Below are positions 2,642 to 25,976 of a stretch of DNA of 26,272 nt, piece by piece. Each line of letters starts with the position of its first letter. Within the stretch, counting starts at the first letter, position 1. The notes below the pieces were generated by a model. That model was not told the DNA's origin and did not search any database. It saw nothing but the letters and a program-made list of their open reading frames with translations. Both the position numbers and the translations under genes were made by a program. The DNA comes from a virus. Location of the stretch: positions 1 through 26,272 of IMG/VR virus record IMGVR_UViG_3300024520_000431. One strand, written 5' to 3'.

Positions 2642-5600
2642 CTACTCCACCTCGCAGGATGCGTAGACGCTGTAGACGTCGATGTCTCTTGCGGCTGCAG
2701 CCCCTGAGTTCTGCACATAAAGCATCGGCTTCAGTAGGGTAGAGGAGCCTGGCAGGTCGGTGGTCGCAGTCTGAACCAAGACATCGTCAATCCAGTACTG
2801 GACGTCAGAAGCTCCCATCACAATCTCGAGTTTATATACCTGGTCGACAGTAAGAGTGGACTCTGTCGAGGTTGACGGGGTGACACCACCATCGTTCGTG
2901 GAAGTGTTCCAGACCGTGCCGGTTGCCTCGTAGGTGAACAGCGCGTGGTGGGTGCTGGCCGTAAGATGAGTCTGGCCCAGGCCAACCCTGACAACCGTAT
3001 TAGTAAGAGTAGTGTTGACGGCTAGATGGCACAGGAACCGCCCCACCCCGCCACGGCTCACCCATTCGGAGTTCGTGACCATGGTTATTAGAGCGTCGTC
3101 ACCGTCACCGTTACCCTGGGAGGCCAGCGTGATAGCCGCTCCTCTGACTGCACTGGGAGCCTGGGTTGCTGTGCCAGAGGTTGGGTCTGTTAGCTCCCAC
3201 CAGTCAGAGTTGAATTGACCGATGCACGGGTCGTACATCTCGATCCGGGTCTCCCTCAGGTAGTCGCCCATACTGGTGATGCGGGCAACTCTTCTCGCAG
3301 CACTATCTTCGAACCTGGTGAAGTTCCGCCCAACGGCATCACCAGATTGGATTTCAATATTGTCGTTGGAGTCTAGGGTTACCAACGTGTTGCTAATAAC
3401 TCTAGCGTTAGCATCACCGTCTAAGGTTGCTGACCCATTGTTAGAGTCGATGTCGATGCTGCCGGCCGTGGACGTGATGTTGACCGCGTCTGTGCTGGTA
3501 ATCGTGGTGATGTCTGCAGCAGAAAGGGTTATGTCCCCGTTAGCAGCACCCACAGCGGTCAGGATGATGGAGCCATCTGCTGTATCAACCGAGAAGTTGC
3601 CTGTGCCGGCTAGGTTCAGGTCTATATCGTCTGCTGAATTCACCTGGAACACAGGCGTGGAACCAGCAGTAGTAAACGTCATGGAACCCACGCCACCCGT
3701 AGTGTCGATGGTCATGATTCCAGCGTTGAGGTCCAGGGCTGAGGTACCTCCTGCTGTAACGGCTACCCCAGTGGTACCAGCAATGATGGTGTTCAGAGTC
3801 GAGCTGATATCCATCTGCCCGTTGGCGCCGTTCGCGTCCAGTTTCACGATACCGTCGGTGGTCTGAATCCAGAGTAGAGCAGCGGCCCCGTTGGTTTGGA
3901 TGTTCATCGTACCCGGAGCACCGCCAGCAGTGGTGTTCAGGGTCATCTGGTCGCCAGAGGTGATGTTCGTCGTAGACGCCGAATCTATATCTACCGTGCC
4001 TGTAGCCCCTAGTGCGTTGAGGTCGATGGTGCCGTTGACCGTGTCTACTGTGATATTTCCGGTGCCACCAGCATCTATATCGATGTCGTCTGCGGAGTTG
4101 ATTGTGAGTACTGGCGCTGTCCCCAGGGTATTTATGTTCATGGCCCCTGTGCCAGAGCCTGCGTTCACCGTCTCAATGACGATGGTTCCGCGAGAGGTCA
4201 GGTCAGCCGCGTTACCCGCGCCGCTGGTGCACCGTATCCTGATATTCCCGTTTTGCGGGATGAGGTCGATGTTACCTCCGGTAGCGGGCTCGACGAATAC
4301 CCGGGAGCCGTTCGAGGACTTGAGGGTCAACTCGCCTCCAGCGTCTACGTCGATATCTCCGGTCTCCGTGAACATCTTGATTTCGCCTGCGACTGCGGCT
4401 GGCTGGGAAGCGGTGTCTCCCGCGTACAGGATTACTGCACCCTCGGCACCGTTGGTGGTGAAGGAGGACCGGACAACAACGTCACCTGCTGTGGAGCCTG
4501 TAGCGTTGTTCACTAGGGATTCGAGGTATACGTCGCCGCTAACGTACCCGCCTCCGCCGCCAGTTACAGCCTGGAGGTTTCCGAACCGAGCGTCTCCCCA
4601 GCTAGTCAGGGTAGTGGCTGCGTTGTTCGTAACCGTGGACCTCATGTCGGTGTCACCAACCGTAAGTGCACCAGCGGCAGCCGCGACCGCGTGGCCTACG
4701 GTCATGTCCCCAGCGTTCAGGCCGGTAGAGTCGTCTTCCGCTTGGACGGTTACGTTGTTCTCGCCCGTGATGCTGATGTTGCCAGCTGTACCGCCGTTAG
4801 CATCTAGGGTGATACCTCCGTCTACCGTGGCTAGGTCGATTCCAGATGTCGTACCCGATGTAGCTAGGCCTAGAGTCCGCGCGTTACCACCAGCCGTGAT
4901 TGTAAGGTCAGCATCGGTAGTGAGAAGAGTTGCGGCCGAGCCTACTGCATCAGCTCTCATCGTTAGGGTTCCGGTGTTGGAATCGATGAGTACGTTGCCA
5001 GCCGTATTGTTGACAATGTTTATGCCGTTGTTGGCTGTGACGTTGAACTGGCCTGTTGCCGTATTGACGATGTTTACGTCGGTCGTGATGTTACACGTGC
5101 CACCAGCGCCCAAGGTGTTGGCGTTGATGTTGATGTTACCGTCTGTTGTGGTGACAGCTACGGGGCTACCGGTTCCAGTAGTAGACGCTGTAAGGGTCCT
5201 CGCGTTACCACCAGCAGTAACGGTTACGGCACCGTCCGTCGTGGATACCGTGTTGGAACTCGCGGCTCCGGTGGTAGTGAGCAAGGATGTAACACCAGCA
5301 CCGCCTGCAGTGATTGCTACGTTGCCGTTGAACGTTCTGGCTGTGACGTTTCCGGGTGCAGCGCCAACGCCAGCATCAATCAGGATGTCCGAAGTGATAG
5401 TCCGGAGCTGAATAGGGGCGCCAGCACTGTTGGTAGTGATGGTAGCCTGACCGGAGGTAGACACGGTTAGCGTGCCACCAGTCGTGGTGTTCATCAGGAT
5501 AGAGCCACCCTGGCCACCAGCTGTCGTGCCCCCATCAATGTCGATGCTGCCCCCGTCGGCCGTACCTGCCGTAGCGTTGCCGCCCTGGACTTTTACGAGG

Positions 5601-6592
5601 CCGCCTACTGAAGATGTGGAGTCTCCACCTATAGCGAGAATGGCCCCGCCAGCCTGGCCGTTAGGGTTGTCTGCTCCCAGTATGGATACGTTCCCAGAGT
5701 CAGAAGCAGCGTTCGAGCCGTCGCCTGCACCTGAAGAAATGGTGACATTTCCGCCCCTGGCACCTGGGCCCGTAAGGTCTAGACCAGCGTCGCCCGCAGA
5801 TATCGTGATATCGGAACCAGCGCCCGAGGCAGTCAGGTTGTTCCCGTCGCCGCCCTGTCCGCCAAGTACGAATATCGCCCCGCCTGCCCCGCCTGGACCT
5901 ACGAGGCTGACTCCGATGTCCCCGCCGTCCCCGCTAGTTGCGATGATTGGTCCACCGGCACCGGGTATGTTGCCTGCTGTGCCTGGGGCTCCGATGCCCG
6001 TACCAGCAGAGAACGTTCCGCCTGTAGCATTCTCTGTAGCGTTACCAGTAGTGAAGGAGATGTTGCCGCCGGAGGAACCAGAAGCAGAAGAGTTCCCTGT
6101 GATGTGGCTGAAGTCTGCCGCGGTGGTGTCTGCAGGGGTGATAAACGTGAAGTCCTGGGTAGCCCGCAGTTCGTCGGCTCCCATGGTGGCGTTGCCGCCC
6201 GAATCCGTAATCTGGATTGCCGTGTTACCTGCCAGAACGTTGAGTTCGAGGTTCAGCGAGCCGTTGGCGGAGGTGTCGATGTCCACCAGGGCAGCGCCGA
6301 TGGCACCGACCGAATCGTTGATATCTACTGAGACACCTACAGCGTTGGCAATCGTGTTACCCGCAGTATAGGCCTGCTGCAGAGTGTTGCCGCCGCCAGC
6401 GACAGCCAGGGCTACCCAGGTAGCAGGTGGACCGCCTGCGTTGGTGCAGATGTACAGCAGGTTACCAACGGTGTCGTAGGCGGTATCCCCCACCTCCAGG
6501 CCGTCCTGTAGAGCAGCTACGCCCGGGAAGGCTCCTGCTCCTGCAAACTGACCCCAGTGGTTGTGATTGTTGGTCGGTGACTTGGTTGCCAT
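2642..6592 (-). CDS. Giant repetitive tail fibre with lectin-like tip
   Basis: This is a 1316-residue virion fibre. Residues 1-70 form an N-terminal attachment region, with a motif common in environmental phage fibres around LQQAYTAGNTI (71-81). Residues 165-365 are Gly/Ala-rich with a short period built on GG-x-hydrophobic-x-hydrophobic. Residues 370-1085 are a Thr/Asn/Asp/Gly-rich beta-solenoid resembling haemagglutinin-type filaments, with internal duplications. Residues 1090-1125 look like a linker. Residues 1140-1316 resemble a LamG/concanavalin-like jelly roll (VYKLEIVMGASDVQYWIDD), probably the receptor-binding tip. The ATG follows AGGTAATAGAA, which overlaps the stop of the upstream spike gene. 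Cysteine and methionine are rare, as expected for an extracellular rod. Fibre identity is strong from composition and context; the receptor is unknown. Confidence 0.85.
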   Translation of the reverse strand: MATKSPTNNHNHWGQFAGAGAFPGVAALQDGLEVGDTAYDTVGNLLYICTNAGGPPATWVALAVAGGGNTLQQAYTAGNTIANAVGVSVDINDSVGAIGAALVDIDTSANGSLNLELNVLAGNTAIQITDSGGNATMGADELRATQDFTFITPADTTAADFSHITGNSSASGSSGGNISFTTGNATENATGGTFSAGTGIGAPGTAGNIPGAGGPIIATSGDGGDIGVSLVGPGGAGGAIFVLGGQGGDGNNLTASGAGSDITISAGDAGLDLTGPGARGGNVTISSGAGDGSNAASDSGNVSILGADNPNGQAGGAILAIGGDSTSSVGGLVKVQGGNATAGTADGGSIDIDGGTTAGGQGGSILMNTTTGGTLTVSTSGQATITTNSAGAPIQLRTITSDILIDAGVGAAPGNVTARTFNGNVAITAGGAGVTSLLTTTGAASSNTVSTTDGAVTVTAGGNARTLTASTTGTGSPVAVTTTDGNININANTLGAGGTCNITTDVNIVNTATGQFNVTANNGINIVNNTAGNVLIDSNTGTLTMRADAVGSAATLLTTDADLTITAGGNARTLGLATSGTTSGIDLATVDGGITLDANGGTAGNISITGENNVTVQAEDDSTGLNAGDMTVGHAVAAAAGALTVGDTDMRSTVTNNAATTLTSWGDARFGNLQAVTGGGGGYVSGDVYLESLVNNATGSTAGDVVVRSSFTTNGAEGAVILYAGDTASQPAAVAGEIKMFTETGDIDVDAGGELTLKSSNGSRVFVEPATGGNIDLIPQNGNIRIRCTSGAGNAADLTSRGTIVIETVNAGSGTGAMNINTLGTAPVLTINSADDIDIDAGGTGNITVDTVNGTIDLNALGATGTVDIDSASTTNITSGDQMTLNTTAGGAPGTMNIQTNGAAALLWIQTTDGIVKLDANGANGQMDISSTLNTIIAGTTGVAVTAGGTSALDLNAGIMTIDTTGGVGSMTFTTAGSTPVFQVNSADDIDLNLAGTGNFSVDTADGSIILTAVGAANGDITLSAADITTITSTDAVNITSTAGSIDIDSNNGSATLDGDANARVISNTLVTLDSNDNIEIQSGDAVGRNFTRFEDSAARRVARITSMGDYLRETRIEMYDPCIGQFNSDWWELTDPTSGTATQAPSAVRGAAITLASQGNGDGDDALITMVTNSEWVSRGGVGRFLCHLAVNTTLTNTVVRVGLGQTHLTASTHHALFTYEATGTVWNTSTNDGGVTPSTSTESTLTVDQVYKLEIVMGASDVQYWIDDVLVQTATTDLPGSSTLLKPMLYVQNSGAAAARDIDVYSVYASCEVE
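3458..4150 (-). repeat. Three tandem 75-79-residue fibre repeats
   Basis: Residues 815-893, 894-968 and 969-1045 of the fibre form three diverged copies of one unit. Each opens with a G-x-M-x-(I/F)-x-T element, continues through a hydrophobic strand to (N)SADDID or TTDGIV, and then shows alternating D/N-rich strands. Copies one and three are most alike: NSADDIDIDAGGTGN versus NSADDIDLNLAGTGN, then VDT followed by (V)NGTIDL or ADGSII. The second copy has lost the SADDID element. Divergence at DNA level indicates old duplications. Confidence 0.7.
4745..5251 (-). repeat. Duplicated TAGGNARTL fibre segment
   Basis: Fibre residues 448-509 and 555-616 are two copies of a segment of about 62 residues, offset by 107 residues. 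Both contain TAGGNARTL preceded by a TT-D strand and followed by a hydrophobic strand, DG-(G/N)-I and an N-rich strand. The intervening 45 residues are a further solenoid stretch. The similarity is also visible in the DNA around 4880 and 5200, where a GCGTTACCACCAGC core is shared. Confidence 0.6.
5498..6100 (-). repeat. Short-period glycine-rich fibre region
   Basis: Fibre residues 165-365 repeat a unit of roughly 15-22 residues: GG followed by a short beta strand such as NVTISSG, SIDIDGG or AILAIGG, then a glycine/alanine/asparagine loop. At least nine units can be counted by eye. Regular GG-strand-loop spacing suggests a narrow beta-solenoid or glycine-rich triple-stranded rod forming the proximal shaft of the fibre. 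Confidence 0.55.
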
Positions 6593-16594: not shown

Positions 16595-19500
16595 TCATCT
16601 CTTGGCTCCCGCTTCGTTGAGCTTGTGAAGCCCTTCTTTCATACCAACCTCCAGGCCAATCCCGGTAAGGACGAGTCCTGAGCCGTTGGTCGGTGGTGAC
16701 CCTGGAGCAATGACGACCTCTTCGACCGTCATCCTCATAGATTGTGATTTCTGCCTACCCACGTGGACCGAGAGCTGCATCGGGTCCCCGAATGTCGGGA
16801 GACCGGAGAGGAACCCTAAGGCCTGGACCTCCGCCTCCGTCCAATCGGAAACCTGGGCCCCGGTCGTATCCTGATACTCAAACTCTAGAGTAACCCGCAC
16901 GTCGCCAGTTGAGTGGCGACCTAAAGTATACGCTCGCCAAATCCTCTGGAAACCCTGGAGCCCTGCCAGCTTCAACCAGGCAGTCCTAGCAAAAGTAGGG
17001 ATATGGTTGGTCAAGTCCGTGGGGAGACCTTCTGATTCCGACGCGACGTCGAACGGGCTATCCAGGATAACAGAGTATAGATTGTCATGGCTGCACGCCG
17101 AGCGGGTTTGTCCCATGCTGGTAGTGCTCGGGTCAAAGAAGATTGACCAAGCTCCGTGGTAGTAGTCGTAGGTCAGGGTCACGTTGGTAAGGGCGCCCTG
17201 CATCCCGAACCTAACCTGATTCTGCTTATCCAAGAGCACAGCAGAGTTGATTAGGATATCCTGGCCAGCCACAGCATTAGCGAAGAAGTCCTCGACTGGA
17301 GCGCCGATGTAGTTGACGTTCAAGCCTCGGTCGATGTTGTAGATGCCCTTCTCAGATTGGAACATCACTCCGAACGGCCCCGAGATAACTGAGCTGCGGC
17401 TGACACAGCCAACATCGCCAGAGATTAGCTTGGGCCCCACCAGCGACTGCCCGGCTCCAGCGTCGTTCGGCCCAGCCCCCGCAATGTAGAAGATTGAAGA
17501 TGATGTGAAGACGAGGACCTTATCGTCCAGGGCTCCCAGAGCTGTGATGGTCTCGGAATCTGTTTGGACCGATATCTCGAACGCACCAGTGAACTCAGGG
17601 GGGAGAGCTGGGGAGCTTATTTTGGAGAACCATACCGATGTTCCCGTTTCAGCAGAGGCTACCCAAACCCTACCGTTGACCGTAGCTACGTCGATAGCAG
17701 CTGGAGGTTGGAGGTTTCCCAGGATGCCGCCTGTCGTGTACAGGATTGGATTATCGGTGAGGAGACTAACGGCTGGCGCTCCGACAAACGTGGGGAAGTC
17801 GACCTGTAGGGACACCCTTCCAGGGACAGCACTTATAGCGTCAGGCCCGAAGGCCGGCTCCCTCAGCGTGTAATAGTGGATAGCCCCGTCTGCGGCCGTC
17901 ATGTAGAGCTCTATGAACAGGGACTTCACATCTGGATTGAATGCAGTGGGGAGGGAAGGGTGCAGGGCTATGAATGTGATGTCTGAGACGGCGCCGCCAG
18001 TTGTGTCGATTACCCTGGGCCTGCTAGGGGCGCTCCTGTGCTCGTTGCCGTGGCTATCGATGAAGACGAAGACAGCTATGCCCTCGTATCTCCCGGGCGT
18101 AACGCCAACTCCGCCTACAATGTTGAACTCGATTATTTCAGGAGCAGTGTGGGGGATAATCTCGCTCCACACATCCCCGTCGAACTGACCTGCCACCGCA
18201 CCGCTCGATACAGTCAGACCAGATGACTGGAGCATCTTAGAGGGGAGAAGAGGCTGCCACTGCATGTCGTAGGAGACTATGCCGTCCGTGTGGTCGTCTA
18301 GGTAAATGTCGTCCCCGTGCCTGTCGGAATACTTGATTGAGTATATCCTGTTGAACACCCAGTTGATGTTATCTGTGCTGGATACCCTCGGAGGGCTAAA
18401 CTGGAAGTTGTCGGGGCAGTTGAGCGTGTCGACCCAGTTATCTACGAGGCTTAGCCTGTCCTGCTGGAACCTGGCCACAGGCTTCAGGTAGTTAGTAGTG
18501 GTTGCCCCGACAGTCCTGGTGTAAGGCATCACGAAGACTGCGGCTGGAGTCTCGTGGTCCACACTGACAGCTCTGTTTACCAGCGAGCCAGAGCGGTTTG
18601 TCCTCAGGCCAAACACAGCACCGTAGTCGTCCGGCTGGAATGCCTTGGTTGCGAGGTACGCGTTGTGCCAAAGGCCTACTGTGCCAGCTACCAAGACACC
18701 AGCGGTTGTAAGGTCTGCCCACTGGGTTTGAGCGTAGAACCTGTCTTCTCCTGTGGGGAAAAGGAAGTCCTCCTCTAGTCCAGAGCTGGCGATGAGCATG
18801 GTGCCAGTAACACCGCGAGTGGTTATCGTGATGTACGAAGCACCCTCGTAGACCAGAGCAGTATTGAGCCAGTTGTAGATAGGGCTTGGACCAGTTGTTA
18901 CAGCCAGAGTCGTCTCGTTTACAGTGAAGGTCCAGACCTGGTCGTCTGCAGCAGCTGGGTCTTTCGATACACCACAGCAGTACTCGTTAGTGATGCTGTT
19001 GTGGAAGATTGTGCGCCCCTGGGATGCTTCGTGGTCGCCAGCTAGGGCCAGGTTGGATGCTGTGATAGCTGGCACCGCATCGAAGAGATGCAAATCAGTC
19101 AGTGCCCCTGAGCCGCCGGGAGACCTGATGGCTATGATTCCGCCGGTCGAGTCCGTATTGGTGGAGTCAGCATCGAAAGCAAAGACCGCGTTCAGGAGTA
19201 CAAACGTAGCGCTGACCGTGAACGGGTTCGTGGTGGTGTTGATTGAAAGAGCTGTTACGTTGTTCGTAGTGGTGTTCAAGGAGATTAGTACGAATGTTCT
19301 AGTGTTCAGAACCAGCACCTGAGGCATGCGGCCCATACCAGTAACAACGGTTGGCGGGATTACAGGCTGCCCCGTGCTCCTCTCGTAAACTGCATACCAG
19401 GTGTCCTCGCCGAAGGCAGTTGGGTCCGGAGTATCGGTCCACGCCACCATCTCGTACTCAGGTGTTACGTTGGAGTCGCACCTGGTAGGTGTAGAATTAG

Positions 19501-19867
19501 CGGCGATGTGCCTTCTGACACTGAGGTCGACGGGGACTAGTCCGCCGTTGCCATTGCTAGAGTGGTTCCTCCACCGGCCCTCGTCTTCAATCAGACTCTG
19601 GACGCTATCTTGGTTAGTTACCCTAAGCTGTCCGCCATGATCGAAGATGGTGTGCGCGGTTGGGTTATTAGTGAACCCTGCCGTGACCTCAGCAGCGTAG
19701 CCGTTTCTCTTGCTGAGACTTCCGGTCTTATCGTACTGCATTTCTCGCACAAGAGAGAGAACTGGAGACTCCACCAGATGCTCGTCTAGCTTCGTATCCA
19801 TGCCGCCCTCTAGGGAGACTTGGACCACGTTCTTAAGCAGCGGTACTCTTGTGGATTGTTTTGGCAC
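16595..19867 (-). CDS. Tail nozzle / tubular hub protein
   Basis: This is a 1090-residue tail protein of the gp12/tail-tubular-B or P22 gp10-like stabilisation type. The N-terminus has the usual signature: GGMDTKLDEHLV at 21-32 and MQYDKTGSLSKRNGY at 43-57. A fibronectin-III-like strand pair lies at 590-670 (VFIDSHGNEHRSAPSRP). From about 718 a beta-propeller-type region starts PPAAIDVATVNGRVWVASAE, with VWFSKISSP, and continues through KVLVFTSSSIFYIAGAGP. The GTG start overlaps the upstream stop as TAGTG. The protein would close the head-tail channel and carry the spikes. It is longer than T7 gp12 (about 800 residues), mostly through extra beta sequence between 100 and 500. Confidence 0.75.
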   Translation of the reverse strand: MPKQSTRVPLLKNVVQVSLEGGMDTKLDEHLVESPVLSLVREMQYDKTGSLSKRNGYAAEVTAGFTNNPTAHTIFDHGGQLRVTNQDSVQSLIEDEGRWRNHSSNGNGGLVPVDLSVRRHIAANSTPTRCDSNVTPEYEMVAWTDTPDPTAFGEDTWYAVYERSTGQPVIPPTVVTGMGRMPQVLVLNTRTFVLISLNTTTNNVTALSINTTTNPFTVSATFVLLNAVFAFDADSTNTDSTGGIIAIRSPGGSGALTDLHLFDAVPAITASNLALAGDHEASQGRTIFHNSITNEYCCGVSKDPAAADDQVWTFTVNETTLAVTTGPSPIYNWLNTALVYEGASYITITTRGVTGTMLIASSGLEEDFLFPTGEDRFYAQTQWADLTTAGVLVAGTVGLWHNAYLATKAFQPDDYGAVFGLRTNRSGSLVNRAVSVDHETPAAVFVMPYTRTVGATTTNYLKPVARFQQDRLSLVDNWVDTLNCPDNFQFSPPRVSSTDNINWVFNRIYSIKYSDRHGDDIYLDDHTDGIVSYDMQWQPLLPSKMLQSSGLTVSSGAVAGQFDGDVWSEIIPHTAPEIIEFNIVGGVGVTPGRYEGIAVFVFIDSHGNEHRSAPSRPRVIDTTGGAVSDITFIALHPSLPTAFNPDVKSLFIELYMTAADGAIHYYTLREPAFGPDAISAVPGRVSLQVDFPTFVGAPAVSLLTDNPILYTTGGILGNLQPPAAIDVATVNGRVWVASAETGTSVWFSKISSPALPPEFTGAFEISVQTDSETITALGALDDKVLVFTSSSIFYIAGAGPNDAGAGQSLVGPKLISGDVGCVSRSSVISGPFGVMFQSEKGIYNIDRGLNVNYIGAPVEDFFANAVAGQDILINSAVLLDKQNQVRFGMQGALTNVTLTYDYYHGAWSIFFDPSTTSMGQTRSACSHDNLYSVILDSPFDVASESEGLPTDLTNHIPTFARTAWLKLAGLQGFQRIWRAYTLGRHSTGDVRVTLEFEYQDTTGAQVSDWTEAEVQALGFLSGLPTFGDPMQLSVHVGRQKSQSMRMTVEEVVIAPGSPPTNGSGLVLTGIGLEVGMKEGLHKLNEAGAKR

Positions 19868-20178
19868 TAAAAAACCCAGAAATTAGCGTTTACCGTTCCG
19901 CCGGCTACTGTGATTCGCACAAACTTCTCTGGGTCCACGGCACTCTCTTGGATTATGATTGTGGCGCCCCCGTTGTCGTTCCCGATAACCGTTCCGCCAA
20001 TAGACCGTCTACCAAGTTTATGGGGGACCTCGTGCGTTCCGGCGGCCAAGTTCAGACCTGTGAGAGCGGAGCCCCTGCCGATATCTGACTGCTGCGGGAT
20101 GGCCTCTTCAACGTTATCTTGGATGCGGTTCGCAGCCTCGTTATCCGTCTGGATGCGTACGTATTTCGAATTAGCCAA
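19867..20178 (-). CDS. Small virion protein near the head-tail joint
   Basis: This is a 103-residue protein. Its core, TGLNLAAGTHEVPHKLGRRSIGG followed by a strand and an aromatic end (NANFWVF), matches a pattern I know from small podovirus proteins beside the head-tail adaptor, in which a leader helix is followed by H-K/G-L-G-R and a beta domain. The start is a rare TTG, eight bases inside the end of the adaptor gene; AGAAGG lies ten bases upstream, and no ATG or GTG occurs in the first 25 codons. It is co-translated with both neighbours. Function is unproved, possibly fibre or nozzle docking. Confidence 0.65.
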   Translation of the reverse strand: MANSKYVRIQTDNEAANRIQDNVEEAIPQQSDIGRGSALTGLNLAAGTHEVPHKLGRRSIGGTVIGNDNGGATIIIQESAVDPEKFVRITVAGGTVNANFWVF

Positions 20179-21193
20179 AATGACCGAACCTTCTGCTGCC
20201 GAGACCGCCAGCGTCTGTAATCCTCTCTGGAAATCCCTGGTCTCTCGCCTGGGACATCATTTTAATTCTCTGCTCTAAGCCGTTCTTTCTCGTGAGGAGA
20301 GCAGAGATGTCGCCCTCCTCCTTCTCGATGCACTTGATGGCGGAATCGATAACTACGTACTCCTCCCAGCCGTTGAAGCCGTTCCAGACCTGAGCGTCCG
20401 TAACTAGCTGAGGAGCGTGGGGGATGTACCAAACCGTGGCCGTCAGGACTGAGCCGGGGGGCGGGTCGAACCTGATGGAAGCGTTGTACTGACCAACGAG
20501 GCCCGAGGAGACCACATTACTGACCACTGCGGGAATAGTCGCTAGGTCGGTATCTGTAACAACCCTGTTCGTGACTGTTCTCACCTCTGTGACTGTGGCT
20601 GTGGCCGGAGCACCGATGAGGGCTGCACCAGATGTAGCCGAGAACGTCAGGACCTGGCCCGGGTAGAAGGCCGATATATCCGAGGCGTTGACCAGAGAGA
20701 AGGACTCCTGGTTCGGCACCCCGATAACGATGTCGAAGAGGGCTGCAATAGTCCCCATCTCAACACCCGGGAGGGGGCCTGTCCCGAAGTCTGTGTTGGA
20801 CATGCTCCCAGCATTGAAACCCAAGAGCCTGTACCTAGCTGCCTCCGCCCAAGTTGCCGTCACATGCTGGTTATCAAACCTCTCGTCGAACATGTAGGGC
20901 CGGATTGGAACGGGGGACGTGCCGCCCAAGTTCACGTCGACACCCTTCAGGATGTAGAAGTCGTTGGGTAGGTGGTAGACGTCTCGGGCCGCCTCTGTGG
21001 TGATGTCGTGTCTGGTCAGGAAGAACTCTTGCCCCGCTGCATCGAGGATGAGGTCGTACAGTTCCGAGATGGACTCGTTGATGTACCGGTCGACCTCGCC
21101 CCCCAGAGCTGTATCGACGAACGTGGTATTTTCCATGTTCGCCCTCTGGAGGGTTTCGGTCCGCAACTGAGCAAGAGTTCGTACCCTGGCCAT
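20171..21193 (-). CDS. Head-tail adaptor (connector) protein
   Basis: This 340-residue protein is predicted to sit under the portal. The N-terminus (LRTETLQRANMENTTFVDTA, then VDRYINESISELYDLI at 34-49) and the segment VYHLPNDFYILKGVD at 72-86 are typical of podovirus adaptor proteins. So is the C-terminus, with FDPPPGS at 242-248, YIPHAP at 256-261, EEYVVIDSAIKCIEKEEGD at 277-295 and a long terminal helix. An insertion of about 110 residues (125-235) interrupts the canonical fold and contains a small beta domain resembling one in the capsid protein. The ATG follows TAGGTAATAC, which overlaps the preceding stop. Confidence 0.75.
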   Translation of the reverse strand: MARVRTLAQLRTETLQRANMENTTFVDTALGGEVDRYINESISELYDLILDAAGQEFFLTRHDITTEAARDVYHLPNDFYILKGVDVNLGGTSPVPIRPYMFDERFDNQHVTATWAEAARYRLLGFNAGSMSNTDFGTGPLPGVEMGTIAALFDIVIGVPNQESFSLVNASDISAFYPGQVLTFSATSGAALIGAPATATVTEVRTVTNRVVTDTDLATIPAVVSNVVSSGLVGQYNASIRFDPPPGSVLTATVWYIPHAPQLVTDAQVWNGFNGWEEYVVIDSAIKCIEKEEGDISALLTRKNGLEQRIKMMSQARDQGFPERITDAGGLGSRRFGHFG

Positions 21194-21200
21194 GTATTAC

Positions 21201-21605
21201 CTACTGACCAGCCAAGGATTCGCGAGTAACGATGGTCACGAACATTTCTTCATTAGCAGTAAGCTCGAAAGCAGCGCCAGCCTCATCGTAAACACTGAAT
21301 GTGAAGGTACGCGTACCCTCGACAATCGCTGTGCACTGGCAAATCAGAGTGACACCAGCCGCTCCGAGGCCAGTAGCCTGGACACTTTGAACTCGGATTG
21401 GGGTTGCTGCGGCCACTGGTGTGTTGAGCTGAATATCGTATTCGCCAACGCCAGTTCTATCGATACCAAGCGTACCGAATGTTGCGTCCAGCGCATCGCC
21501 TTCGACCAGGGCCGGGTCAGCAGCACCAGTTCCTAGCATCCGAATATGATAATAAACTACCTGCGGGTTTACTTCCCAACTTCTATGGATTGCGTCGACT
21601 GCCAT
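21201..21605 (-). CDS. Decoration-like virion protein 2
   Basis: This is a 134-residue protein likely to coat or cement the capsid. It looks all-beta, with GVGEYDIQLNTPV, VTLICQCTAIV and RTFTFSVYDEAG as apparent strands. The end, EEMFVTIVTRESLAGQ, matches the end of the neighbouring 130-residue protein (QELCVMLVERNSVAN), and both have an F-x-(V/I)-x-(V)-YD/D strand about 30 residues earlier. The two therefore appear to be paralogues. AGGAG lies eight bases before the ATG. Position directly after the capsid gene supports a head role; identity with known decoration proteins was not checked. Confidence 0.65.
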   Translation of the reverse strand: MAVDAIHRSWEVNPQVVYYHIRMLGTGAADPALVEGDALDATFGTLGIDRTGVGEYDIQLNTPVAAATPIRVQSVQATGLGAAGVTLICQCTAIVEGTRTFTFSVYDEAGAAFELTANEEMFVTIVTRESLAGQ

Positions 21606-21632
21606 TTCAAATTCTCCTGAATAAAATTGTTG

Positions 21633-22025
21633 TTAGTTAGCCACACTGTTGCGCTCGACGAGCATGACGCATAACTCTTGGTCAACGTCTAGGTCGTCGG
21701 CCGCTGGGGGGTTAGCGCCGTCGTAGATTTGCACATGAACCTGACGGTTAGGCCGGTCCACTTCGATTCCAAACTGGTGAGGCTGCTCGCCGCCAACGTC
21801 CTCTAGGACCTGGCAACTGAAGCTGACATCTTGAAGCGCTCCAACACCTTCAAAAGTGAAGATATATGGAGAGTTCGCGCCACCAGCGTTGGTAACTGTG
21901 ATTCCCTTACCTGCTCCGGCTACCATACCGAGGCCAGCACCACCGATTCCCTCCGCTTTGCCTGCATAAAACAGTAGGCCGGGCTGGAGAGCCCACATCT
22001 TCGACTTGTTTCTATTCGAGGGCAT
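21633..22025 (-). CDS. Decoration-like virion protein 1
   Basis: This is a 130-residue protein directly downstream of the capsid gene, separated by a 69-base gap with a hairpin. A basic N-terminus (MPSNRNKSKMWALQ) is followed by a Gly/Ala-rich stretch and beta strands (SPYIFTFEGVGALQDVSFSC, VHVQIYDG). The C-terminal strand QELCVMLVERNSVAN is shared with the next protein. AAGGA lies six bases before the ATG. Cement or decoration protein is the best guess from size, fold and position. Confidence 0.65.
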   Translation of the reverse strand: MPSNRNKSKMWALQPGLLFYAGKAEGIGGAGLGMVAGAGKGITVTNAGGANSPYIFTFEGVGALQDVSFSCQVLEDVGGEQPHQFGIEVDRPNRQVHVQIYDGANPPAADDLDVDQELCVMLVERNSVAN

Positions 22026-22050
22026 CTTTTTTCCTTTGTTTTAGAGGACC

Positions 22051-22077
22051 GGAGCCCCGAGACCATCCCGGGACCCC
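22051..22077 (-). promoter_or_regulatory. Strong 12-bp hairpin after capsid gene
   Basis: The minus-strand RNA folds as GGGGUCCCGGGA, loop UGG, UCUCGGGGCUCC: twelve consecutive pairs, three of them G-U. On the plus strand those three would be C-A mismatches, so the structure fits the minus transcript specifically. It starts 17 bases after the capsid stop codon. No U-run follows, so it is not a classic intrinsic terminator; 3' protection of the capsid message, processing or partial termination are possible. Confidence 0.6.
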
Positions 22078-22094
22078 TTAGACCTCAGTCAGTA

Positions 22095-23333
22095 CTAAAC
22101 AGCGAGGCTAATATTCGCGTTCCAACCTGGAGCAGCGCAGCCCAACTGAGCGTAGTACCCAGTGCGAACTTCGATTGCGTCTAGGCCAGCTTCGCGGAGG
22201 AACTGCATACCGTCGGAGTCGAGCAGCTGAGGCGCGGCACCGAGGGAATACAACTTCCAAGTATCCATCTGAAGCATGAAGGCGGTTCCGACCGGGCAGT
22301 TGTGGTCAGGGATGACCAGGACCGAACCCGTGGGCGTGTGGAGGCGCATCCCCGAGAAGGAGATGTCAGCCATATCGCCGGAGCCGTTGCCACGCTCGTA
22401 CTCAACGCGGGAGCCCAAGTCATTGAGCAGCTCGTTGTAGTGGAGGTGGTTGAGAAACACGTGGCTGGGGCGTCCACCCTCACGGCCGAGGCGAGTCGCG
22501 CCACCGGTCAGGGCTTCTTGCACAGTCATCGTGACACCAGCAAAACGGACACCACCGAGGCGGGTAACGTCTGCAGTCCGGTTAACACCGAAGAAGAGGC
22601 CAGCGCCAGGAGCAGCAGGAGGAAGCCAGCCGCCGAGACCCGTGAGGGAAACGTTGGCGCCACCGTTAGCTGCGTCGCCCTGCTTGTACAGGAAGTCGGT
22701 TGCAACGAGGCCCGGAATCTGAGCGTTCCAGTTACCGCCAACAACCGTCAGAGTTCCGAGGTCACGGTCGATGCCCGTAAGAACAACGGAACCGGGGTAG
22801 AGCACGCCACCTGCGGCAACCGAAGCCACGATGGTATCGCCAACCTCGAAGTTCGTCACATCAGCCGGAGTGGCCAAGGTGATGGTAAGAGCAGCGGCAC
22901 CAGCGGCGTTCACAACACCGATTTGGCCTGTGCCCGTTCCGTAGATCTTCTGGGCCAAGGAGCGGCCGACACTCTGGAAGACGCCGTCGATTTCTGAGGT
23001 CACTGCCTCCATGAAAGCGCCAACATCACCCTTCGAAGCCTTTAGAACCTCGTTCTGGATAGTTGCCAGGCCGTAGTCGCGGGCTCGGGTAAGCACGAAA
23101 CGGACGTACTGGCTGTTAGCGCCAGGCTTCTGGGCCAAAGCGGTGGGGAAATCCACTGAACGGGACGCCGGGGTACCGAAACGGACAGGAACCGGAAGGT
23201 TCAGACCGGTGAAGTTCTCCATTTTCGGAAGCATCGCCAAGAGGGGATGGTTCGAGTAGGACATGCTCTTGATTTCAAGAGCGGTGTAGTGTTCCTTGAG
23301 TACGCTCGCGAACGAGACTAGATCCAATGCCAT
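22095..23333 (-). CDS. Major capsid protein (HK97 fold)
   Basis: This is a 412-residue major capsid protein, the shell subunit. The N-terminal part has YSNHPLLAMLPKMENFTGLN (26-45) followed by PVPVRFGTP, and then RARDYGLATIQNEVLKASKGD (83-103) with the long spine helix AFMEAVTSEIDGVFQSVGRS (106-125). These patterns are typical of HK97-fold capsid proteins of environmental podo- and siphophages. The C-terminal P-domain includes VIPDHNCPVGTAFML. Residues 150-216 look like an inserted beta domain (DVTNFEVGDTIVAS). GGAG lies seven bases before the ATG and falls just after the scaffold stop. The gap after the gene and the hairpin there suggest it is expressed separately from downstream genes. Confidence 0.88.
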   Translation of the reverse strand: MALDLVSFASVLKEHYTALEIKSMSYSNHPLLAMLPKMENFTGLNLPVPVRFGTPASRSVDFPTALAQKPGANSQYVRFVLTRARDYGLATIQNEVLKASKGDVGAFMEAVTSEIDGVFQSVGRSLAQKIYGTGTGQIGVVNAAGAAALTITLATPADVTNFEVGDTIVASVAAGGVLYPGSVVLTGIDRDLGTLTVVGGNWNAQIPGLVATDFLYKQGDAANGGANVSLTGLGGWLPPAAPGAGLFFGVNRTADVTRLGGVRFAGVTMTVQEALTGGATRLGREGGRPSHVFLNHLHYNELLNDLGSRVEYERGNGSGDMADISFSGMRLHTPTGSVLVIPDHNCPVGTAFMLQMDTWKLYSLGAAPQLLDSDGMQFLREAGLDAIEVRTGYYAQLGCAAPGWNANISLAV

Positions 23334-23346
23334 TTCTTATCTCCGG

Positions 23347-24090
23347 TTATTCGTTGAACCTCAGGCCTTCCATCATCCGCCTGATTGATTCTTCGCGGCT
23401 TCTGGGGGCTTCGGTCCTACTGGGGGTTTGTGCTGAGTGTCGGTTCGATAGAGTCGGAGCCCTCGGAGCCGGCTGGGTGAACTTGTCCGCCCAACGCTTC
23501 CTGATGTTCTCGTCTTCCATCATCTTGTCCATCAAACCGGAGAGATATTGCTCAATCTCGCTGGCGGCCTTATCTTCGCTTAAGGACTCACCGGTCTTTT
23601 CAACGTGCTCCTGAATCCTCTGGACGACTGCTTCCTGCATGCCGAAGTTATTCGTGAGCGGGTATTCGCCGGAGGAGTCCACGTAGCTACGGATTCTGCC
23701 TCTAGCCTCTTCCAGGGCCTGCTCGTACTTGGCCCGGTCTTCACGTTCCTGTCTTTCCTGCCACATCCTCTTCATATCGGAAACTTCACCCCTGAGACCT
23801 GCTGTGGGGTCCGGCCGGTTGCCCTTCAGTACCTCCTGAGTGAGGTTCTCGAAGGTGTGGCCGTGGGTCTCTAGGGCGCGCATAGGAGCGCTTTCCATCT
23901 GCGTCCTCAGTTCATCTAACTGCTGCTTATAGTCTTCTGCAGTTTTTAGCTGGCTTGCTTGCCTTCTTACGTTAGCTTCCTGCTCCATAAGTGCTTGGAG
24001 GGCTGCTGCTGCTCTCGGCGTCATCTCAGGCTCCGGTGCTGTTACTGCCGGGGTTTCCGTTGCTTGCTCAGTCTGAGTAGTTTCGTCCAT
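23347..24090 (-). CDS. Capsid scaffolding protein
   Basis: This is a 247-residue, acidic and helical protein between portal and capsid genes, the standard place for a scaffold. It is rich in Glu/Gln/Lys/Arg, with a Thr/Glu/Pro-rich N-terminus and long coiled-coil stretches (about 30-80 and 100-140). The C-terminus (REESIRRMMEGLRFNE) is a basic amphipathic helix, as expected for capsid binding. Two starts are possible: ATG at 24090, with AGAGG eight bases upstream, is preferred; GTG at 24108 would overlap the portal stop as GTGA and add six residues. No protease domain is visible, so the scaffold would need to exit or be cut by another enzyme. Confidence 0.75.
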   Translation of the reverse strand: MDETTQTEQATETPAVTAPEPEMTPRAAAALQALMEQEANVRRQASQLKTAEDYKQQLDELRTQMESAPMRALETHGHTFENLTQEVLKGNRPDPTAGLRGEVSDMKRMWQERQEREDRAKYEQALEEARGRIRSYVDSSGEYPLTNNFGMQEAVVQRIQEHVEKTGESLSEDKAASEIEQYLSGLMDKMMEDENIRKRWADKFTQPAPRAPTLSNRHSAQTPSRTEAPRSREESIRRMMEGLRFNE

Positions 24091-24104
24091 GGTTCTTACC
24101 TCTG

Positions 24105-25976
24105 TCACTGTAGGTTTGTCTGACCGTCCCCAGCACTAACTGCATTCGGAGCTACTCCGTTGGGCCCGGGGGCCGGAGGGGCAACGCCTGCCTGCATAGA
24201 CTGGGCTTGATTTAGTTGAGCCTGCTGCTCCATTTGAGCCCTCTTGATGAACTCGTTGACGGCAACCATGAACTGACGCAAAAGTCTTAGTCGGTCCTCC
24301 TCCACGCTGTCGTTAACGGCCTTGTTGTACTCGGCCTGTATCTTCTTGAGGGCTAGCTGGTGGTCGATAAAAGGCTCAGGTGCCTCGTAGACCCCGTCGT
24401 CAATCATCTGTTCCGCGACTCTATCAATATAGTCTGAGGCTGCTCGGTCTAGGGCGACGGAGCGGTCGAGGTCTGGGTAGTCCAGGAGCCTCTTGCCCTC
24501 TTCGATATCGATGAGTCTAAGTCCGATAAGCTGCTCAATCATTGCGAGCCTGCCCGAGGGCGACTGGGGCAGAGACGAGGAGGGGAACACTTTCAGTACG
24601 TACGCGTCGCGGTCTAGGTCTACGTCCGCCCACTTCACCTCTTGTATGGTTCTCTTATCCCTCTGGGCTACAACGCTGTAGCTCGGGTCTTCTTCGTGTA
24701 TCTCTCGGCCGAGGTCCACCATGCGTACTGCAATGTCCAAGAACATCTGCTCGTAGGCTTGGGATACGACGGCAAATCTCCCAGACTCTATATCGCTGAA
24801 AGCACGGAGCGCAGCCCCGGACTCCAGGCCAGCAGGCTTCTGGGAACTGGCAGATAGTTGGCTTACGCCCGCTATCTCGAAAGCCCTCTGGTACAGCCGG
24901 TCTAGGTGGGCAAAGAGTTCTCCGGGGACTGATTGGCCAGACGAGATGATAGGTGGGGTACCGGCGTAAGGGACGATGGCGCCGATTTGGTTGTTTATCT
25001 GGGACTTCTTTATCTTGCTGCCGGACTCTACGAAGATTCGAGGAATGGACACCAAGTCCATAATCTTCTTGATGGTAATGAGCAGCTTGTTGATTTCAGA
25101 CTGCAGTCCCCGGAGCTCTTCTGCTACGCCGATGCCGAAGAAACCTCGTAGGTTGCTCGACCAGCGGACGAAGACGAACGGCAGGTAATCCTTCTCCCAC
25201 GGCTCGTCTGCTAGAATCTTGCTCTCGATGGTTATCTGGTGTCGGCCGTCTCCTGCCCCGGGTCCCGAGGGGAGGTGCCAGCCCTCGACAACTCGCAACT
25301 GGTCTGCCGTGGAATCGTGGGCGGAGCGTTGCTCTGCTGTGCCTTCCCGCCACTGGTCCGAGGGGTTCGAGGCCGCGAGGATGGCTCCCTGGTGCTCGGG
25401 GAATAGCTCGAGGAGGACGTCCCGGTTCACGAACTTGGACTGGATGATTTGCTGGGGTTCCTCGTAGAAGCCCTCCGCATAATCCACGAACAGCTCGGAG
25501 GGGAGGATGCGCTCAAACTTGATTTCTGTGCTCCCGGGGTCCCGGAACACCTTGGCTACTCCGGTCCCGAACACACAGGCATCCAGGAACACTCTGGGGG
25601 CCTTCTCAAACACCCTAGATAGGTAGAACTGGCCGTCTACGAACCTCTCGAGGAGCTTGGCTCTCCTTCTCGTGGAGTGGTTGCCTCCGGAGGTCAGGAA
25701 GGTCGGGCGGGGCCGGGAACGTGCAATTCTTGATACGATGGTATCGCAAACGCTCTTCACCACGTTCAGGGTGACCCGGTCCTCCGTCAGGAGCCTCTCG
25801 TACGTTCTGGGGCCTACTCCGCCCAATCCGCGGTTGGTGTAGAGGGCTGAGTGGAGACGGTCGTCAATCCGCCTGCCCCTGTCATTGTTCCAGATATGCT
25901 CGAAGGTATCCTTAAGAGCGCCGTCTGGAGCCCCCTCTAGCCACCAACGAAAGTCCTTCTTAGAAAGGTCTGGCAT
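24105..25976 (-). CDS. Portal protein
   Basis: This 623-residue portal protein would form the dodecameric DNA gate at one vertex. Characteristic segments are EDRVTLNVVKSVCDTIVSRI (65-84) with RPRPTFLTSGG after it, and FGTGVAKV at 136-143. Further on are FGIGVAEELRGLQSEINKL (280-298) followed by IPRIFVESGSKI, and VSQLSASSQKPAGLESGAAL (371-390). The C-terminal 60 residues are Gln/Ala/Pro-rich and probably disordered. Size and segment order match podovirus portals. The ATG follows the stop of the 61-residue gene with no gap. The ribosome-binding site is weak (GGA about 10 bases upstream), so coupling to the preceding gene is likely. Confidence 0.88.
   Translation of the reverse strand: MPDLSKKDFRWWLEGAPDGALKDTFEHIWNNDRGRRIDDRLHSALYTNRGLGGVGPRTYERLLTEDRVTLNVVKSVCDTIVSRIARSRPRPTFLTSGGNHSTRRRAKLLERFVDGQFYLSRVFEKAPRVFLDACVFGTGVAKVFRDPGSTEIKFERILPSELFVDYAEGFYEEPQQIIQSKFVNRDVLLELFPEHQGAILAASNPSDQWREGTAEQRSAHDSTADQLRVVEGWHLPSGPGAGDGRHQITIESKILADEPWEKDYLPFVFVRWSSNLRGFFGIGVAEELRGLQSEINKLLITIKKIMDLVSIPRIFVESGSKIKKSQINNQIGAIVPYAGTPPIISSGQSVPGELFAHLDRLYQRAFEIAGVSQLSASSQKPAGLESGAALRAFSDIESGRFAVVSQAYEQMFLDIAVRMVDLGREIHEEDPSYSVVAQRDKRTIQEVKWADVDLDRDAYVLKVFPSSSLPQSPSGRLAMIEQLIGLRLIDIEEGKRLLDYPDLDRSVALDRAASDYIDRVAEQMIDDGVYEAPEPFIDHQLALKKIQAEYNKAVNDSVEEDRLRLLRQFMVAVNEFIKRAQMEQQAQLNQAQSMQAGVAPPAPGPNGVAPNAVSAGDGQTNLQ

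Follow-up and report, generated by a model that had tools for sequence, protein, structure and literature searches.

Gene organisation of the head region

The viral record IMGVR_UViG_3300024520_000431, a stretch of 26,272 nucleotides here called the window, derives from an uncultured short-tailed phage of an environmental podovirus group. Its minus strand encodes, in order, the portal, a putative scaffold, the major capsid protein, two proteins of about 130 residues, the head-tail adaptor, a 103-residue protein and a tail/virion protein of 1090 residues. The features considered are as follows.

24105..25976, minus strand: portal protein, P22/SU10-like (Pfam P22_portal, E=8.8e-10)
23347-24108, minus strand: putative scaffold, between portal and major capsid protein
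22095..23333, minus strand: major capsid protein gene, 412 aa, HK97 fold (AlphaFold2, Foldseek, PHROG 14242, NCBIfam capsid_maj_Podo)
22671..22937, minus strand: domain of the capsid protein immediately following the spine helix (residues 133-221), likely source family of the adaptor insert
21633-22025, minus strand: protein of about 130 residues between the capsid and adaptor genes
21201-21605, minus strand: second protein of about 130 residues between the capsid and adaptor genes
20171..21193, minus strand: head-tail adaptor gene, 340 aa, SU10/T7-type core (Pfam SU10_adaptor PF24175 and Foldseek of the model)
20519..20818, minus strand: inserted domain in the adaptor, residues ~126-225, absent from adaptors L106, L107, L111 and L116
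20519..20713, minus strand: capsid-homologous part of the insert, adaptor residues 161-225 (HMM and HHalign)
16595..19867, minus strand: large tail/virion protein, 1090 aa, putative nozzle (PHROG 511, E=2.5e-10; Pfam Phage_stabilise, E=7e-4, below cut-off)

The first-pass annotation had pointed to a resemblance between capsid residues 150-208 (22710-22886, minus strand) and adaptor residues 165-222 (20528-20701, minus strand), and these coordinates proved correct.

Core of the adaptor

The adaptor matches the Pfam family SU10_adaptor (PF24175) with E=1.8e-7 and 32.2 bits, as compared to a curated cut-off of 27. In the AlphaFold model, the core has pLDDT values mostly between 80 and 95 and consists of a helix bundle and a beta region, the latter being by analogy the fibre dock. 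Foldseek searches with this model matched VP1 (2e-5) and SU10 (4e-4), as well as tail or adaptor chains of GP4, cyanophage A4, Pa223 and KHP30; the solved adaptor chains that were matched are 195-228 aa in length. The profile match and the predicted core fold together identify the protein as an SU10-type head-tail adaptor. Its genomic context, with the portal upstream and a large tail protein downstream, fits a ring located between portal and nozzle. Sequence searches of solved structures with the capsid and the adaptor gave no relevant match, and annotated phages contained no match to the adaptor or its insert.

The capsid protein and its post-spine domain

The window capsid was modelled by AlphaFold2 with a mean pLDDT of 80 and displays the HK97 fold. 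Foldseek returned 281 PDB matches to the model at E<=0.001, the best being the SU10 major capsid protein (E=4e-10) and cyanophage Mic1. At the sequence level, the protein matches the PHROG 14242 major head protein (E=5e-15) and NCBIfam capsid_maj_Podo (E=4e-18, below that model's cut-off).

The domain that directly follows the spine helix is modelled as a small beta domain with one short helix (pLDDT ~84-90). A domain of 80-108 aa is present at this place in all 176 full-length capsids (176/176), and the more distant capsid of Arthrobacter phage Jasmine aligns through it. A recent insertion of this domain into the capsid is thereby ruled out. The first-pass annotation had viewed the segment as an interruption of an otherwise typical fold in each of the two proteins; this is true of the adaptor (see below), but in the capsid the family carries this segment as a constant domain.

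Position and gain of the adaptor insert

In the window adaptor, approximately 100 extra residues (126-225) separate a strand ending in YRLLG from a strand of the form xYxxSIRFxP. In the close relatives L106, L107, L111 and L116, the equivalent YRxxG and xYxxxIxxxP strands are linked via a short loop. The insertion site lies in the adaptor's beta region, where it corresponds to a beta-hairpin tip.

The distribution of the insert was assessed in 233 loci, which yielded 176 distinct adaptors (138 of 210-249 aa, 31 of >=250 aa and 7 short pieces), and 169 adaptor cores were used for a tree. The window adaptor falls into a clade of five together with L106, L107, L111 and L116, with a support of 99. 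The insert is missing from 4/4 of these nearest relatives, and none of the rest of the 169 adaptors carries it. Because all four clade-mates are without the insert, it was gained on the window phage's own branch. The alignment and the tree thus define adaptor residues ~126-225 as an extra domain acquired on that branch at the tip of a beta-hairpin, and the earlier suggestion of a mobile insertion is borne out for the adaptor.

Searches of viral contigs with the insert and with near-adaptor alignments recovered a single other carrier, the near-identical 40.3-kb contig IMGVR_UViG_3300024518_005224, and a scan of genome contigs for insert-bearing adaptors found no relative. The insert is thus known from one lineage only. 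The separate contig differs from the window at 21 of 11,020 aligned bases, with 0 differences in the adaptor, and has the same insert; for this reason, misassembly is an unlikely source.

Relationship of the insert to the capsid domain

The window's own two proteins provide weak evidence of a relationship. BLASTP of the whole proteins recovered the same register at E = 0.38, and Smith-Waterman shuffling of the two segments gave P about 0.011. The case rests on family profiles, which show the relationship to be real; the window pair by itself, at P about 0.01, would not have been proof of it.

An HMM built from the capsid domains of 14 relatives, excluding the window, scored the adaptor insert at 20.4 bits, as compared to 11.6 bits for the best of 5,000 shuffled inserts and 1.1 for the reversed protein. 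When an HMM of 133 capsid domains was searched against all non-capsid ORFs, the window adaptor ranked first with E = 3.1e-5 (next, 0.018). A profile of 176 capsids, with the window left out, likewise placed the adaptor first among 5,225 non-capsid ORFs (E = 5e-5; next, 0.013). In the reverse direction, phmmer with the insert as query returned capsid proteins for all of the best 13 matches besides the adaptor itself, mostly at capsid residues ~138-220, which is the homologous place. The strongest single match was to capsid L071, in which LVNANDITNFEVGHVLVFSATSGA (capsid) aligns with LVNASDISAFYPGQVLTFSATSGA (adaptor).

Profile comparison by HHalign, which had been proposed at first pass as a check, gave a score of 36.1 and a probability of 89 for the insert against the capsid domain (35-39 in a repeat comparison). 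The best of 300 shuffles reached 18.1, the best of 400 real fragments 20.1, and inserts of other adaptors up to 14.0. The similarity originally aligned by eye is confirmed by these family profiles, clearly above chance. A chance or compositional resemblance between two Ala/Thr/Val-rich beta segments would account for the modest P value of the window pair, but it is highly improbable, since none of the controls (shuffles, the reversed protein, real fragments and the inserts of other adaptors) comes near the score of the insert and the reverse search selects capsids at the homologous place. Homology of the insert to the post-spine domain of the capsid family is, on this sequence evidence, close to certain.

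The match spans ~62 residues. The first ~35 residues of the insert match the capsid domain poorly, and the match stops at profile position 79/89, leaving the final capsid strand with its GDxxFxxGD motif without a counterpart in the insert. The insert is best described as homologous to the post-spine domain but truncated or diverged, and not as a full member of that family. Pfam, PHROGs and NCBIfam contained no family matching over the insert. AlphaFold models the insert as disordered (pLDDT ~30-44, as compared to ~84-90 for the capsid domain), because the alignment for the model, which comprised all aligned adaptors, has no other adaptor with homologous rows for it; judged by sequence, the insert and the capsid domain may have a common fold.

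Other inserts in the adaptor family

Inserts of seven other kinds are held by 24 other adaptors of the 169. By number of rows these are GM (7), DUF7243-like (7), TGGAT (4), E1_FCCH-like (2) and L186 type (2), plus L108 and the fibre-like L007; GM, TGGAT, L186 and L108 are labels coined in this analysis. They occur in the adaptor genes of L007, L102, L104, L108, L124, L178, L186 and relatives, at core columns near 72 and 144-150, away from the site of the window insert. Some of them have matches in tail-fibre, baseplate or virion structural families, and the L007 insert matches tail-fibre and baseplate domains. Among the 169 adaptors, no other insert occupies the site used in the window, and no other is clearly related to the capsid.

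The possibility that these inserts are the same domain was rejected for all seven families by HHalign. Against the capsid domain they score at most about 20, except for GM, which is marginal at 21-25 (column shuffles up to 14); the window and GM inserts score 10-13 against each other.

At least eight changes are required on the adaptor tree to explain the presence of any insert, and three sites are involved. This suggests that the adaptors of this podovirus group form a hotspot where beta domains are inserted. Such repeated gains of unrelated inserts also suggest tolerance, and the window insert, known from a single lineage, could be a functionless passenger tolerated at a solvent-exposed hairpin. 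Its frame is nevertheless open through ~100 extra codons with a GC content like that of the rest of the adaptor gene, and its homology is still recognisable after strong divergence; a neutral passenger is accordingly considered unlikely.

Probable transfer: direction and donor

Since the domain is universal in capsids and restricted to a single lineage among adaptors, movement from capsid to adaptor is the simplest direction. The domain is an old part of the capsid that likely moved to the adaptor. As a mechanism, a gene segment encoding the capsid domain would have entered the adaptor gene via illegitimate recombination with the frame kept.

The first-pass annotation had proposed that one domain was copied between the two head proteins. 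One type of domain is indeed common to capsid and adaptor, but the idea that the window phage recently copied its own capsid segment is not supported: its capsid ranks only ~52nd of 134 against the insert, with a score of 52 that lies near the median of 50, and the highest score among other capsids is 95. Few branches of the domain tree are supported, and the insert occupies a long one; the tree does not name the donor capsid. The donor would belong to this capsid family, but it is not recognisable as the capsid that the window phage has today.

The capsid domain and the insert might instead descend separately from promiscuous small beta domains of phages, with no direct transfer from capsid to adaptor. 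Adaptors of this family have acquired many beta domains, and the marginal match of GM to the capsid domain would be compatible with a third source common to both. This reading is nonetheless quite unlikely, as the window insert scores 35-39 against capsids but 10-13 against GM, no other insert comes near, and no better source was found among the non-capsid ORFs of the loci, nor at E <= 10 among annotated phages. Homology, gain in the adaptor and transfer from capsid to adaptor, taken together with the collar role described below as a leading guess only, form the reading that we consider probable.

Possible role of the insert

The SU10 adaptor comprises a helix bundle, a long-tail-fibre dock domain and an embracing loop, and forms a dodecamer under the portal; its interaction with the capsid is presented in Fig. 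5e of that study (PMC9509320). By analogy, the window adaptor would form a dodecamer. Its beta region would be the outward long-tail-fibre dock, as in SU10 and T7, and the insert would extend one hairpin of it outward. Given a dodecamer and an outward-facing dock, both taken from analogy, twelve copies of the insert would encircle the neck immediately beneath the portal vertex.

In the adaptor of phage R4C, an accessory Ig-like domain touches the capsid around the fivefold vertex with a symmetry mismatch, and the authors tie this attachment domain to local stability, not to adsorption (PMC10276861). The ring of inserts in the window phage may similarly serve as a collar at the periphery that attaches to the capsid, perhaps re-using the domain faces that are employed between capsid subunits. 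By this analogy, a peripheral collar facing the capsid is judged to be the most likely role of the insert, and is put forward tentatively. A stronger form, which we regard as improbable, is capsid mimicry: the capsid-derived domain on a twelve-fold ring would engage the five-fold vertex via the inter-subunit contacts of the capsid and so bridge the symmetry mismatch.

The main alternative role is binding of tail fibres or the host surface, in which the insert would offer an extra docking or carbohydrate-binding surface unrelated to capsid contact. It is suggested by SU10 and T7, where long tail fibres dock on the equivalent domain (PMC9509320), and by the fibre-like insert of L007 within the same adaptor family. 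The window insert, however, matches capsid domains and no fibre family, and the fibre-like inserts occupy a different site on the adaptor. A fibre or host role is considered unlikely, although it ranks next after the collar.

Comparison with known systems

The window adaptor is comparable to SU10 gp11 (PF24175) and to the adaptors of T7 and KP32 in core sequence, predicted fold and a beta region between helices, and the gene order portal - capsid - adaptor is the same. The solved adaptor chains that were matched are ~195-230 aa, whereas the window adaptor is 340 aa, and the SU10 paper describes no capsid-type domain. The adaptor of roseophage R4C resembles that of the window in having an accessory domain on its periphery, which in R4C is shown to contact the capsid (PMC10276861). 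R4C is a siphophage, however, and its domain is N-terminal and Ig-like instead of a fibre-dock insert, and is not reported as a relative of a capsid protein.

The I-domains of P22 (PMC9965877) and crAss001 (PMC10172136) are, like the window capsid domain, beta domains inserted in the HK97 fold. Their sites differ, as P22 carries its I-domain in the A-domain and crAss001 in the E-loop, whereas the window capsid domain directly follows the spine helix; in the portions of these two reports consulted, neither I-domain is described in an adaptor. Promiscuous phage domains (Fraser 2006, cited in PMC10276861; PMC10684548) are mobile domains common to proteins of differing function, as here. The cases reported in these sources are mainly Ig-like domains and receptor-binding, neck passage or lysis proteins, whereas the window case concerns a domain of the capsid family. 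No earlier report of a capsid-family domain in an adaptor was found in the open-licence literature searched.

A domain of the shell has apparently been re-used in a neck protein. This adds a new case to the domain shuffling known from phages and suggests that a domain of the major capsid protein is re-usable in another virion protein. If the insert touches the capsid, it offers a concrete system for how a twelve-fold neck fastens to a five-fold vertex. If it does not, it still illustrates clearly that domains move between virion proteins.

Additional features of the window

The two ~130-residue proteins encoded between the capsid and adaptor genes (21201-21605 and 21633-22025) have a Smith-Waterman score of 59 against each other, as compared to 51 for the best of 2,000 shuffles. 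They look like diverged paralogues at the sequence level and may be head decoration proteins. At another locus (L126:4295-4660, plus strand), a 121-aa protein encoded just after the capsid gene ranks second, behind the window adaptor, in matching the capsid domain, though only marginally (E = 0.013). Decoration proteins may be distantly related by ancestry to the capsid post-spine domain.

Differences between the window and the near-identical 40.3-kb contig are unevenly distributed, as 13 of the 21 fall within 37 bases (19013-19049, minus strand) inside the gene for the 1090-aa tail/virion protein. Of these, 5 are non-synonymous and 8 synonymous when each base is read singly. A donor copy for this tract was sought in the window and none was found (best, 27/40). 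The cluster resembles a short tract left by recombination or conversion. An ORF of 1316 aa at 2642-6592 (minus strand) is highly repetitive, rich in Gly, Thr, Asn and Asp, and contains many short beta-type repeats; it is probably a fibre or spike.
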